Shown here: positions 46,016-49,792 of the stretch, one piece after another
How the letters are laid out: every line of letters starts with the position of its first letter
Position numbering within the stretch: the first letter of the stretch is position 1
Source: Arthrobacter sp. B3I9
GTDB taxonomy: Bacteria; Actinomycetota; Actinomycetes; Actinomycetales; Micrococcaceae
NCBI RefSeq assembly: GCF_030816935.1
Contig: NZ_JAUSYO010000001.1
Coordinates: 1,860,001 to 1,924,000, forward strand
Direction: 5' to 3'
DNA length: 64,000 nt
The notes under the pieces: model-generated
What the model was told of the DNA's origin: nothing
Database searches by the model: none
Seen by the model: the letters and a program-made list of their open reading frames with translations, nothing else
Position numbers and translations under genes: made by a program

Positions 46016-46333
46016 GATTCCGGGACCGGAGATCCACGGGTAGGCGGAAATCCTGGTGGTGGGCAGACAATGAAGTGCCCGCCGGCGGTGAGGTGCCGGC
46101 GGGCTATACAGTTGTCTATTCAGTTGTGATTACCGTGCACAAGCCCGTGGTCCTCAACCGTTCTGCGCACGGCGCGGGCCGGAAACAATGGTCAGTTCGC
46201 GCTCACGCATCACCCAGCCTGCAACGACGACGGTAGCGGCCCGACCCTTGGAAAAGCTGGGGAGCCGGCATCGCCCGGAACAAAGAAGCGGCCCCGGCGT
46301 GCGTTTCCGCAGGCCAGAGCCGCTTTTCCTCGG
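46016..46333. other. Intergenic region between corA and tRNA-Arg
   Basis: It contains a GC-rich hairpin after corA (CCCGCCGGC 46078-46086 with GCCGGCGGG 46095-46103) and a terminator-like stem for the leftward tRNA at 46286-46325. No gene is supported. Confidence 0.6.
46286..46325 (-). terminator. Terminator of tRNA-Arg
   Basis: AAGCGGC (46286-46292) pairs with GCCGCTT (46319-46325); read leftward it ends in TTCTTTG. The loop is long (26 bases) with internal pairing possible. Confidence 0.55.
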
Positions 46334-46406
46334 TGCCCCAGGAGGGAATCGAACCCCCGACCGGCGGATTAGAAGGCCGCTGCTCTATCCCCTGAGCTAC
46401 TGGGGC
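46334..46406 (-). tRNA. tRNA-Arg (anticodon TCT)
   Basis: Leftward cloverleaf with acceptor GCCCCAG/CTGGGGC, D-arm AGCTCAGGGGATAGAGC, anticodon loop CTTCTAA (TCT) and T-arm GGGTTCGATTCCC. The last pair of the anticodon stem is a mismatch. CCA is not encoded. It borders the foreign segment that begins about 100 bases to its right, on its 5' side. Confidence 0.95.
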
Positions 46407-46510
46407 ATGACCGCCCGCCACACTTACCGGGCTGCGCCTCAAAAAGTTTACAGTGCCTTTCATCCGAAGGCGGGCAGGACAAAGCCGAATTTCAGCCCGG
46501 CACCTTCTGA

Positions 46511-46662
46511 CTTGTCCCCAACAGCGTCTATGGGCCGCGGGTTTTCCACATGGCGCGCTTCGGGCCTGCCCGCCGGGCCGCTGCGGCTTCGTTCCGCATG
46601 GGCTTGACCGAGCGGCGCTTCGACCGCACCGCCGGGCGCTGGGTTGACGGCAACACGAACTG
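46511..46662 (+). pseudogene. Remnant of the ssb upstream and 5' coding region
   Basis: Bases 46511-46578 match 49119-49185 (the ssb upstream region) with three differences, and about 46590-46662 match ssb coding sequence 49328-49401 with six differences. The roughly 140 bases between, including the ssb start codon, are missing. The residual frame reads FRMGLTERRFDRTAGRWVDG and stops (TGA) exactly where similarity to ssb ends. It is an imperfect direct repeat flanking the low-GC segment. Confidence 0.88.
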
Positions 46663-47166
46663 ATAGACAGTTTCAAAAGGCTCTATTTACTGGCCTTCTC
46701 GAAGTGTCCAAGGCTCAAGCGCATTGCAACGATCCCCATCCCTCTAGACTTGGTGATCTCGGACTGCGCCTTGACAAACGCGTCGTTATCCACGGCCCGC
46801 TTCTCATTGATGGAGTCCTCAATCACCGTCAAGAGCCCCGTGCTTGCCACCAGCATGGCTGTCATTGCTTGATCGACGAGATCTGTGTCGGTGAAGAGGC
46901 GGACCGTGTTCAGCATGCCCTGAAGGTCCTGTCTCAGCCGAAGTACTTCGCGTTCGTCCAGCCGTCGCGGATTACCGAAATGTCCTCGGACCAGCAGGCT
47001 TTCGTACTCATCGAAAGTCACAAGGAACTTCACGTAAAGGGCTTCCTTCTTCGCCAGTGTCGCCTCTGCCTGCTCATGGTTCTTGTTGAGCTTCCAGAGA
47101 TCCAGCTCTGCCTTATGCGCGTCTCGGACGTTCTTCCTGTTTACGTAGGCCGTAAGACCGGCACCG

Positions 47167-47172
47167 CCTAGG
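47167..47172. repeat. Target-site duplication, left copy (CCTAGG)
   Basis: CCTAGG directly precedes the IS end. IS481-family elements are known to insert at NCTAGN and duplicate it. The same six bases follow the other end at 48287-48292. Confidence 0.92.
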
Positions 47173-48160
47173 TGTACTGGTCAGGCAGGTTGGTTAAGCG
47201 GCTGATGGGCGGGCGGCCTCCGATTGCGGTGTGGGGCCTGTGGTGATTGTAGTGGTGCAGCCATGCCGGGAGCGCGTTTCTGCGGGCTGATTCGGAGGCG
47301 TAGAAGCGCTTGAAAGCCCACCCGTCGGCGAGGGTCCGGTGGAACCGTTCGATCTTTCCATTGGTCTGCGGGCGGTAGGGGCGGGTCTTCTTGACCTTGA
47401 TGTTCAGTTCCCGGCAGGTGTCCCGCCAGAGGTGGGATTTGTAGGCCGATCCGTTGTCGGAGAGAACCCGCTCAACGGTGGCGCCGCGGGCAGCGAACCA
47501 GGACACGGCCCGTTTCAGCACTCCCACGGCGGTGGCAGCTGTTTCGTCGCCATGGATCTCGGCGTAGGCGACCCGGGAGTGGTCATCGATGACGGTATGC
47601 ACGTGAGCGGTGCCGATCAGCGGGTTGCGGTAGCTGCTATGCGGTTTGGCAGGGGTACTTGCCCGATTCCTGTTGCCTTCCTGTCGGCCAACGTAGCGCC
47701 AGCCGCCACCGTCCGGGATGTTGCCGAGCTTCTTCACATCGACGTGGATCATCGCCCCCGGTGTCTCATGTTCGTAGCGGCGGATGACTTCTCCGGTGCG
47801 CTTGTCGATGTGATGCAACCGGTTCAGCCGGCACCGGACCAGGACTGCGTGGACCGTCGAGGCGGGCATGGCCAGCTTCGCTCCGATCGCGACCGGCCCC
47901 AACCGTTGCTTCCAGCGCAGATGCACGACCTTGCGCACCAGCTGCTGCGCGGTCCGGTTCGCCACCCGGTGCGGGCGCGAGGATCTGTCGGCCATGCCCG
48001 CCTGGCCCATAGCGGCGTAGCGTTCAGCCCAGCGCTTGGCGGTGGGCCAGGAGCAGTTGAATTGTTCGGCGGCCCGGGACACAGGCCAACCGTGGTCTAC
48101 GACGAGACGCGCAACGCGTAAACGTTGGCGCGGAGTCAAAGCGGCATTAGCGTGGGACAT
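47168..48160 (-). CDS. IS481-family transposase
   Basis: The 330-residue DDE transposase has an N-terminal helix-turn-helix (LTPRQRLRVARLVVDHGWPV, AAEQFNCSWPTAKRWAERY) and an rve catalytic core. The triad is Asp141 (IHVDVKKLG), Asp235 (VLSDNGSAY) and Glu271 (TNGKIERFHRTL), with the D-35-E spacing of this family. The frame is intact, so the element may be active. Its stop codon TAG comes from the target duplication (47168-47170), not from the element itself. Confidence 0.95.
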   Translation of the reverse strand: MSHANAALTPRQRLRVARLVVDHGWPVSRAAEQFNCSWPTAKRWAERYAAMGQAGMADRSSRPHRVANRTAQQLVRKVVHLRWKQRLGPVAIGAKLAMPASTVHAVLVRCRLNRLHHIDKRTGEVIRRYEHETPGAMIHVDVKKLGNIPDGGGWRYVGRQEGNRNRASTPAKPHSSYRNPLIGTAHVHTVIDDHSRVAYAEIHGDETAATAVGVLKRAVSWFAARGATVERVLSDNGSAYKSHLWRDTCRELNIKVKKTRPYRPQTNGKIERFHRTLADGWAFKRFYASESARRNALPAWLHHYNHHRPHTAIGGRPPISRLTNLPDQYT

Positions 48161-48286
48161 GAGGACCTCCTGGTCGCTGCAGCGGTTGTCTAAGCAACTC
48201 CACTGTGCAACCGGAGGTCCTCACCTTGGGGTCAACGACTCCAGCGAGTCACCACATTGACCGAACCAACGTCCCTGGGCAGTACA
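47173..48286 (-). mobile_element. Complete IS481-family insertion sequence (1114 bp)
   Basis: The ends are imperfect inverted repeats of about 23 bp: TGTACTGGTCAGGCAGGTTG at 47173 and, read leftward from 48286, TGTACTGCCCAGGGACGTTG. They both continue with GTT. CCTAGG target copies flank the element. One full transposase gene lies within. It interrupts the membrane-protein gene. Confidence 0.95.
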
Positions 48287-48292
48287 CCTAGG
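48287..48292. repeat. Target-site duplication, right copy (CCTAGG)
   Basis: Second copy of the target hexamer, immediately after the last IS base. Identical copies imply a fairly recent insertion. Confidence 0.92.
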
Positions 48293-48381
48293 CCCGCAAC
48301 AACTACTCCACAGGTGGTCACTATCAATCTCAACGTCTCGGCGTCCATGGCCCAAAAGTACCCAAGTCAGGCCCCGTCTGT

Positions 48382-48774
48382 TCAATCTCGGATGCCGAGA
48401 TCCTTCCTCATGGCCAAACGGAGCTTGTCGTAGGCCTCTCTGAAGTTCTCGGATGCCTCTTCGCGGGTCATCTTCGCCGAGATGTGCTCGTTGTGAGGAC
48501 GCGCAAAAGCATTGAGAGTCGCTGTGGTGAAGGCGGAAAGCGTCTTCTCGAGATGCTTCGGGATGAAGAAATCGACGTCGCCCGCGAGAAGAACCTCCGA
48601 GTTGGCATGAATTTCGTCGTTCACGCGTTTTACTAACGAAGGTGGTCGGCTCGTAGCGTCGGCCAGGAACCTTCCGGCTTGTATGTACCGGTGATAGACC
48701 TGACGCTTCTCATTGCGGAGCCATTGGGCGTGCTCACTTGCACGCCCAAGGAAAGCGCCCAGCCAACTGCCCAC
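48382..48774 (-). CDS. Hypothetical protein, upstream partner of the interrupted gene
   Basis: A 130-residue, charged, mostly helical protein starting at GTG 48774 (MGSWLGAFLGRASEHAQWLR). It has no signal peptide; helices with heptad-like spacing (KQVYHRYIQAGRFLAD-type, HLEKTLSAFTTATLNAF) suggest a coiled coil or four-helix bundle. Base composition is lower in GC than the flanking genes, pointing to transfer. It lies 34 bases before the interrupted membrane-protein gene. No ribosome binding site is obvious. I do not recognise a family. Confidence 0.65.
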   Translation of the reverse strand: MGSWLGAFLGRASEHAQWLRNEKRQVYHRYIQAGRFLADATSRPPSLVKRVNDEIHANSEVLLAGDVDFFIPKHLEKTLSAFTTATLNAFARPHNEHISAKMTREEASENFREAYDKLRLAMRKDLGIRD

Positions 48775-48786
48775 TAGTGCGCGTAC

Positions 48787-48829
48787 ACACCACCGGCTCT
48801 TGTTTCGGATAAGTCAGGGCCGGTGGTGT
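48787..48829. repeat. 11-bp perfect inverted repeat upstream of the unknown operon
   Basis: ACACCACCGGC (48787-48797) pairs with GCCGGTGGTGT (48819-48829) around 21 bases. It could end transcription coming from the degenerate frame on the right, or be a binding site. Confidence 0.65.
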
Positions 48830-48845
48830 CTACCGCGAACAGCCC

Positions 48846-49090
48846 AGATCAGAAGCGGATGATCTACGTTCAGATTTACTGGTGCTGCCGAGACCCGCGT
48901 TCGCAAATGGCATGGATCCTGACGATGTCGTCAGCGTTGTGCTTCGGGCCAGACGCGACGTGTGGCTGCGGGACGCTGTTGTTGCACGCAGAACGTAGGT
49001 CAGGACGTTCGGTAGCTCCCTGTCTTTGACGTCGGCACTTAAGACATCATCGTTGACGACGAGCAGAAGCATGCTCGTACCTTTCATCGC
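48846..49090 (-). pseudogene. Possible frameshifted gene remnant in the foreign segment
   Basis: Leftward, a frame begins MKGTSMLLLVVNDDVLSADV and continues KDRELPNVLTYVL, which looks coding. After that the same frame turns Ser/Thr/Arg-rich like a shadow, while the neighbouring frame reads ASGPKHNADDIVRIHAICER and stops. A single frameshift near 48990-49010 would explain it. No family is recognised and it could be chance. Confidence 0.3.
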
Positions 49091-49246
49091 ACGAGCCAGC
49101 CGTCGCAACTATGAAGAACTTGTCCCCAACAGCGTCTCCGGGCCGCGGTTTTCCACATGGCGCGCTTCGGGCCTGCCCGCCGGGCGGCGCCTGATCGACG
49201 CTGGAAGTGCCCGCTTAGGCAGAACACTTCGAGACAGGACAGAAGA

Positions 49247-49792
49247 ATGAGTGACAACATCACGGTCCGGGGCTTCGTCGCCACGGAGATCAAAAGCTCG
49301 ACGACGCCCGGAGGTGTGCCCACGGCGTCGTTCCGCATGGGCTCCACCGAACGGCGCTTCGACCGCACCGCCGGCCGCTGGGTTGACGGCAATACAAACT
49401 GGTTCACGGTACAGGGCTACCGCCAGTTGGCGGGGAACATGGGCTGCAGCATCAAGAAGGGCCAGCGCATCATCGTCGTCGGGCGACTTAAGCTGCGCAG
49501 CTGGGAAAAGGACGGGCGGGTTCATCACGCGGTGGAAATCGACGCCGAATCCGTTGGCCACGACCTCATGTGGGGCTCGGCGAACTTCATCCGCATGGCC
49601 GGCGCCGGGGGACAGGGAGCCGCCACCCAGCCCGCCATGACGCCCGGCGACGAGGAGCCCCGCGGCGACGATCCGGAGGTGGAGGCGGACCGGGATGGAG
49701 ATGACTTCGCCACGACGTTCATCGACGACGCGACCGGCGAGATGCAGGAGTTTGATCAGGAAACGGGTGAACTGAGGGGAGCTGCATCCTGA
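49247..49792 (+). CDS. ssb: Single-stranded DNA-binding protein without canonical acidic tip
   Basis: The OB fold is clear: ITVRGFVATEIKSSTTPGG, NTNWFTVQGYRQLAGNMGCS, KKGQRIIVVGRLKLRSWEKDG. The C-terminal region is acidic but ends ETGELRGAAS rather than DDDIPF, so the usual partner-binding tip is missing. It is therefore probably a secondary SSB paralogue (SsbB-like). ATG 49247 follows CAGGACAGAAGA. Its 5' part is duplicated in a broken form at 46511-46662. A lipoprotein gene and ettA follow in the same direction. Length is 181 residues. Confidence 0.92.
   Translation: MSDNITVRGFVATEIKSSTTPGGVPTASFRMGSTERRFDRTAGRWVDGNTNWFTVQGYRQLAGNMGCSIKKGQRIIVVGRLKLRSWEKDGRVHHAVEIDAESVGHDLMWGSANFIRMAGAGGQGAATQPAMTPGDEEPRGDDPEVEADRDGDDFATTFIDDATGEMQEFDQETGELRGAAS

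Follow-up and report, generated by a model that had tools for sequence, protein, structure and literature searches.

The segment at 46663-49117 of a 64,000-nucleotide stretch of the Arthrobacter sp. B3I9 genome is very probably a remnant left by a small temperate phage of this genus that inserted at ssb, a gene encoding an SSB paralogue. The whole stretch is referred to here as the window, and the genome it comes from is a single contig of 4.12 Mb. A decayed copy of the ssb 5′ region forms the left border of the segment, and a complete ssb forms the right border. The left copy stops at Trp codon 52, the codon at which five intact prophages split ssb in other genomes of the genus, and a second remnant, in genome G032, stops at the same TG of that codon. 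G-numbers denote analysed genomes, L-numbers fetched loci, and C-numbers contigs. The junction-pattern search covered 206 genomes of the genus, the integrase and cargo-profile searches covered 204, and a wider sample consisted of 395 genomes drawn from the family.

The duplicated ssb 5′ region and its left junction

The borders of the segment comprise the following features.

46332-46406, minus strand: tRNA-Arg (anticodon tct), which is the left neighbour in the empty site too
46407-46509, no strand: ancestral tRNA-proximal spacer, present on the left side of the insertion only (alignment with empty-site relatives)
46510-46662, plus strand: displaced old ssb 5′ end, decayed, consisting of two matching blocks; about 132 bases including the start codon are lost
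46661-46662, plus strand: attL crossover dinucleotide TG, the first two bases of ssb Trp codon 52, shared by the junctions of five prophages and the G032 remnant
46663-46680, plus strand: putative phage attachment arm, cargo side, from arm scoring against ten prophage arms
49118-49246, plus strand: regained ssb upstream block, which begins at ACTTGTCCC, the same point as in G032
49247-49792, plus strand: intact ssb paralogue of 181 amino acids, with an unoccupied attB whose TG lies at 49400-49401

A blastn search of 46401-46720 against the window identifies the two blocks of the duplication. The upstream block aligns 46510-46581 with 49118-49188 at 94.4% identity over 72 columns (68/72, E 2e-26), and the coding block aligns 46584-46662 with 49323-49401 at 91.1% over 79 columns (72/79, E 6e-27). 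The next-best match in the window reaches only E 0.2, making it clear that the duplication is not due to chance. The stretch separating the blocks is 2 bases long in the left copy and 134 in the intact copy, the latter including the ATG at 49247. The coding block runs from codon 26 into codon 52 (N51-W52), of which it includes the first two bases, and the shared part stops on the TG of the TGG codon. The first-pass annotation had described an imperfect copy of the ssb upstream region and early codons without a start codon, which the two blocks confirm, along with the roughly 140 missing bases it reported. Its limits need adjustment: the copy starts at 46510, covers codons 26 to 52, and ends on TG, the A of the TGA at which similarity was said to end being foreign already. 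Its proposal of an insertion at ssb that displaced the old 5′ end beside tRNA-Arg is likewise borne out. The left copy is the original in place, because the ancestral tRNA-proximal spacer is kept beside it and is absent at the right copy in the alignment.

Attachment arms were scored by comparing the 16 bases after each TG, on both strands, with ten arms from the five prophages. The arm after the TG at 46661 ranks first of 7,429 TG sites in the window, and the G032 arm ranks first of 2,351 in the G032 locus. The best single match of the window arm, at 12/16, is to the cargo-side arm of the G097 prophage, and cargo adjoins the arm in the window as well; its worst, at 2/16, is to the integrase-side arm of G122. 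The window thus shows an ssb 5′ part that ends at the TG of Trp codon 52 and is followed by a phage arm. Judged from its sequence, this left junction is the attL of the ssb-site prophage family.

A pattern of ssb codons followed by TGA matches 4 of the 206 genus genomes, namely the window's own, G032, G122, and G152, and a reversed-pattern control matches none; the G152 match has no ssb and is attributable to chance. In the family sample, the pattern has two matches, the window and a chance match beside a tRNA-Ala gene, and the reversed control has one. Phage records yielded no match to the displaced ssb region.

Intact prophages that split ssb

Five of the 204 genus genomes (G122, G023, G045, G097, and G108) have an ssb split at Trp codon 52 by a prophage. 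In G122, four small minus-strand genes come after ssb codons 1-51, and behind them lie genes for tail, tape-measure, capsid, portal, and terminase proteins, a replication protein, and a serine integrase, with ssb taken up again from codon 52; the genes were named by reading and by similarity to G097. From this split it was predicted that further genomes scoring poorly for ssb would also have a divided gene. Eight such genomes, G122 included, were checked, while G119 and G135 (63 and 68% complete) were left out. Four of the seven further genomes are split, with 16-18 kb between the halves; the remaining three, G156, G027, and G068 (94, 68, and 82% complete), ran contrary to the prediction, the SSB genes seen in them all being different ones. 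All five split genomes carry another SSB gene, indicating that the split ssb is a paralogue.

Measured from core to core, the prophages are 19,552, 16,301, 16,973, 17,897, and 16,103 bp long (16.1-19.6 kb overall). In G023 and G097 the integrase is found on the left side, in G122, G045, and G108 on the right, and all junctions fit a crossover at the TG inside AAC-TGG or an equivalent. A pattern for another arm type matches exactly G023, G097, and G108 among the 204 genomes. PHROGs names in G097 include integrase, primase, endolysin, terminase, portal, major head, major tail, tape measure, and minor tail; phage genes of the other ssb prophages were assigned by tblastn similarity to G122 and G045.

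The integrase clade and the insertion at ssb coincide. With the G097 integrase as query, 74 of the 204 genus genomes match at 1e-15, and the five best integrases are those at ssb, with 49-100% identity and E values of 3e-131 or better. The next one (E 8e-60, 38% identity) lies 1.5 Mb from the ssb of its genome, and some shorter matches reach 41%. At E 1e-80, the family sample returns only G097 and G108, both known genus members. An IMG/VR contig of 17,454 bp encodes a 93% identical integrase, begins at the ssb ATG, and has the same junction. In phage records, none of the best 20 of 419 integrase relatives exceeds 38.6% identity.

The empty site and other islands in relatives

The arrangement without an insertion is widespread in the genus. 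A tRNA-Arg(tct) gene lies 178-444 bp upstream of ssb in 94 of the 101 genus genomes in which ssb was matched from its start, a set that excludes G122 with its split gene; in 90 the distance is within 300 bp, and in one of the 94, G005, the tRNA gene is annotated on the opposite strand. Judged by ssb, the nearest relatives are G010 and G102, and both have the empty site, with 236 and 237 bp, respectively, from tRNA-Arg to ssb. The first-pass annotation had asked for such empty sites in relatives and had predicted other cargo at the same junction, and both have been found in other genomes.

Seven genomes (G032, G050, G098, G081, G082, G070, and G160) are exceptions to the short interval. In G050, tRNA-Arg and ssb are 2.2 kb apart, with a transporter and a LysR-type regulator, identified by eye, in the interval. 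No tRNA-Arg is present in the 12-19 kb fetched for G081, G082, and G070, or in the 3.1 kb before the contig end in G160. The 7.3 kb between tRNA-Arg and ssb in G098 (L083) form an island in which 20 bp of the tRNA-Arg end are exactly repeated. In G081 (L054), G082 (L055), and G070 (L068), large islands lie between tRNA-Arg and ssb; beside ssb, part of the tRNA-Arg gene is joined to foreign sequence, and sliding clamp- or ParB-like genes were recognized by eye within 7 kb. These three islands are a different, tRNA-attached class. They occupy the same intergenic interval as the window segment, but, unlike it, they break within the tRNA gene (by eye) and leave ssb whole and unduplicated. Attachment at tRNA-Arg was considered for the window segment too and rejected: the tRNA gene is intact there and the spacer on the left is ancestral.

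A TNTCCACAT motif lies upstream of this ssb in 20/20 aligned sequences, in the window at 49118-49246, with several copies in G050. We take it to resemble a DnaA box, perhaps reflecting replication-linked control.

Contents of the segment and the cargo family

Between the attL arm and the regained ssb, the segment contains the following features.

46683-47166, minus strand: 3′ part of cargo gene ORF1, cut by an insertion sequence (IS); relative of a gene in the G045 pair on contig C108
47167-48292, minus strand: IS481-family element including target repeats, recognized by domains, inverted repeats, and a 6-bp target repeat
48293-48348, minus strand: 5′ part of ORF1, with the start codon at 48348-48346
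48346-48375, minus strand: ORF1 start and promoter-like head, fitting the pattern of the four G122 cargo genes
48382-48774, minus strand: cargo gene ORF130, 130 amino acids, with an N-terminus shorter than those of its relatives
48778-48826, minus strand: ORF130 head, an imperfect hairpin (48790-48826) and a promoter-like stretch, resembling by eye the heads of the G097 and G032 cargo genes
48831-49117, no strand: 287-base spacer between cargo and regained ssb

The GC content of the segment is 0.598, compared with 0.665 for the window, and is uneven: the IS481-family element stands at 0.644 and the rest at 0.561. Apart from the two cargo genes and the IS, the segment holds only small open reading frames (ORFs) without a family above cutoff, and no head, tail, or packaging genes were found in it. 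Its right border shows a whole ssb rather than an attR joining a phage arm to codon 52. No large serine integrase lies beside either end; the window's genome offers no better integrase match than a 36% fragment 1.7 Mb away, at C1:3629929, and the segment is therefore called a remnant and not a prophage.

The IS481-family element proper spans 47173-48286 between CCTAGG target repeats at 47167-47172 and 48287-48292. Its transposase ORF (47168-48160) matches LZ_Tnp_IS481 at 28.6 bits (cutoff 22.2) and rve at 62.7 bits (cutoff 32.6). A DDE transposase with the IS481 N-terminal domain, inverted repeats, and a target repeat place it in the family, and it resembles other IS481-family insertion sequences in its transposase domains, inverted repeats, and 6-bp target repeat, with nothing unusual. 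The stop codon of the transposase comes from the CCTAGG target repeat. A copy 87% identical to this IS sits on a plasmid of Arthrobacter sp. Hiyo8.

Both interrupted and intact cargo genes have relatives elsewhere in the genus. The 3′ part of ORF1 matches the G045 pair gene by tblastx (35% over 117 amino acids, E 7e-18). ORF130 carries a conserved EHxxWLRxxK region; used alone as a query it finds only itself, and because it supplies one row of the four-sequence cargo profile its own profile match is by construction; independent relatives were obtained as well. A protein search with this profile, scoring the 7,997 candidates that share most words, identifies 65 proteins including the window's own. 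Most are nameless, and the named ones are hypothetical save one uncharacterized membrane protein; the organisms named are Arthrobacter-group bacteria, or unclassified. Across the 204 genomes, the profile finds 43 places in 30 genomes. For 18 of the 43, a listed serine integrase is no more than 45 kb away, against about 0.8% per place expected by chance; 3 of the 18 are in two ssb prophages and 4 are in G023 outside its ssb prophage. With those seven places set aside, 11 of 36 are still near a serine integrase. Runs of neighbouring cargo-family genes also occur outside the ssb site in G023 (L178, C1:342352-344388) and G195 (L182, C7), a few kb from an endolysin-like gene.

Most cargo relatives are small proteins with a hydrophobic N-terminus, each preceded by a promoter-like head, and the family is a phage cargo family of the kind labelled "moron". 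The heads near the start codon are alike in G122 and the window, by pattern, and in G097 and G032, by eye. The head pattern has a sole match in the window, at ORF1, and four matches in 99.9 kb of G122, all at cargo genes. A hairpin recognized by eye precedes the cargo genes of G097 and G032 and ORF130 only, and not all cargo heads. The ORF1 head is probably a leaderless promoter, and the likeness among the heads suggests that cargo genes may be expressed without leaders. No Pfam match above cutoff was obtained for the cargo, and PADLOC gave only one match, at E 0.0099. The likeliest role would be exclusion of other phages, expressed in the lysogen. Four adjacent G122 cargo genes with like heads had raised the possibility of an integron-like gene-cassette array, which was rejected since these genes turned out to form one end of a prophage.

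Recovery of a complete ssb

In all five prophages, ssb resumes at codon 52 directly after the phage arm, leaving the gene without codons 1-51. A protein search found no second ssb 5′ copy in any of the five, each region holding a single N-terminal and a single C-terminal part, and the ssb 5′ region of each prophage, used as a nucleotide query, found only itself. Because the prophages bring no ssb 5′ end, a second event is required to account for the intact ssb of the window. The two ssb copies in the window are closer to each other (68/72 and 72/79 in the upstream and coding blocks) than the regained copy is to G010 (58/71, 60/79) or G102 (56/69, 68/79), and neither copy exceeds 58/71 and 68/79 against these two genomes. 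The regained copy thus resembles the stranded one more than either relative, suggesting that the donor was closely related to the host. From the ATG to the TG, only 1/155 bases differ between the two ssb copies of G032, yet its right upstream block is similar to that of the window's clade, with 56/69 bases shared with the window's right copy, and not to the host's own left copy. Because this block is not host-like, DNA came from outside, at least in G032. A joining of the regained upstream block at its ACTTG by the integrase was also considered; comparison of the flanks with the arms by eye gave no convincing match, and this candidate was rejected. The regained ssb was probably acquired later by recombination with DNA of a close relative.

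Weighing the explanations

The preferred history has three steps. A large serine integrase would have recombined attP with attB in ssb, with crossover at the TG of Trp codon 52 as the sequences of relatives attest, splitting ssb and leaving its promoter and codons 1-51 beside tRNA-Arg. Nearly the whole prophage, including its integrase, structural genes, and attR, would then have been lost in the window's lineage, with the cargo end retained longest, and a whole ssb regained, most simply by recombination with the ssb+ DNA of a close relative. Of the exchanges involved, the right one may have fallen in or beyond ssb and the left one, at 49118, may have connected the ssb upstream region to phage DNA. 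Last would come two changes that can be read directly in the window, the loss of about 132 bases including the start codon from the ssb 5′ stub and the strike of an IS481-family element on the retained cargo gene ORF1. As for the island proposed in the first-pass annotation, its insertion at ssb stands, while the element appears not to be of a kind of its own but what is left of a small temperate phage.

Several observations weigh against this history. The segment retains no integrase, attR, or structural phage genes, and the spacer at 48831-49117 has no identified source, with 48775-49117 giving just one weak 24-bp match (E 0.01) to the fetched loci. The lead of the attachment arm is small, with a score of 85 against 81 for the runner-up, and single-arm identity ranges from 2 to 12 of 16. 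Just two of the five intact prophages, G122 and G097, carry the cargo family at the non-integrase end. No intermediate of the step in which ssb was regained has been seen. Finally, the regained blocks of G032 and the window (49118) start at the same ACTTGTCCC though cargo and spacer differ, which independent rescues would not predict; the shared start may reflect common descent of the rescued arrangement.

One alternative is a unit of ssb 5′ region, phage arm, cargo, and ssb 5′ region that moves between strains by homologous recombination in the ssb repeats and swaps its cargo without phage or integrase. It would account for the different cargo between the same two junctions in the window and in G032, whose gene encodes 234 amino acids, and for the two nearly identical G032 copies whose right upstream block nevertheless resembles the window's clade. 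Only two examples are known in about 206 genomes, no circle or recent transfer has been seen, and the window copies have not been homogenised, the left one having decayed. As a full explanation this is possible though doubtful, and it describes a later stage of the phage history more than a full rival to it. That phage cargo has escaped its phage, with the ssb 5′ repeats making an integrase-less cassette that spreads among Arthrobacter strains by homologous recombination at ssb, is an unlikely extension of the same idea.

The first-pass annotation had held that the island itself supplied the new ssb 5′ end, that is, that a phage or island carries the ssb promoter and 5′ end and rebuilds ssb upon integration. 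A complete ssb at the right border in both the window and G032 would fit, but the five intact prophages carry no second 5′ copy, and codons 1-51 are missing from the ssb they leave behind. The attP and attB sites of serine integrases differ outside the core, so that native ssb codons beside the core at attR are not expected of such an enzyme, and the proposal is improbable. With no phage involved, the ssb 5′ region might have been duplicated in tandem on the spot and something unrelated inserted afterwards; the duplication by itself would yield two copies. This reading leaves unexplained why the left copy stops at the TG used by five prophages and one other remnant, as well as the arm similarity and the cargo family, and it can hardly be credited. 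A phage remnant inserted at ssb remains the explanation that we favour.

Significance and relation to known systems

A single odd duplication has led to the definition of a phage attachment site in an SSB paralogue, represented by five prophages and two remnants in about 206 genus genomes and matched by a serine-integrase clade. It yields temperate prophages whose terminase is related to that of very small Arthrobacter phages, and it provides a candidate integration site for Arthrobacter genetics. The lysogens are natural knockouts of the ssb paralogue, and the remnants offer a case of hosts regaining a target gene while keeping phage cargo. Judged by titles and the starts of abstracts, none of the open-licence papers listed describes ssb as an attachment site, which argues only weakly that no such report exists.

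Among 50,697 phage records, the G122 large terminase is nearest to those of the 15.5-kb Arthrobacter phages Elkhorn, Lore, and kin (44.9% over 94%). These phages, which we take to belong to cluster AN, resemble the ssb prophages in small genome size and a related large terminase, a comparison based on the G122 terminase. According to PMC5513430, cluster AN phages, for which Maggie is named, average 15.5 kb, and among 46 Arthrobacter phages only Galaxy, which is likely temperate, encodes an integrase; the ssb prophages differ in encoding a serine integrase along with a replication protein.

The kind of element, a small temperate phage with a serine integrase, is ordinary. The ssb prophages have a short crossover core, a split target gene, an integrase by one end, and no long direct repeat. 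In these features they are like phiC31, Bxb1, and A118 (in comK), which we take to be the familiar large-serine-integrase prophages inside protein-coding genes. They differ in their target, an ssb paralogue entered at Trp codon 52, and the window differs further in holding, very probably, only a remnant and in having regained the target gene.

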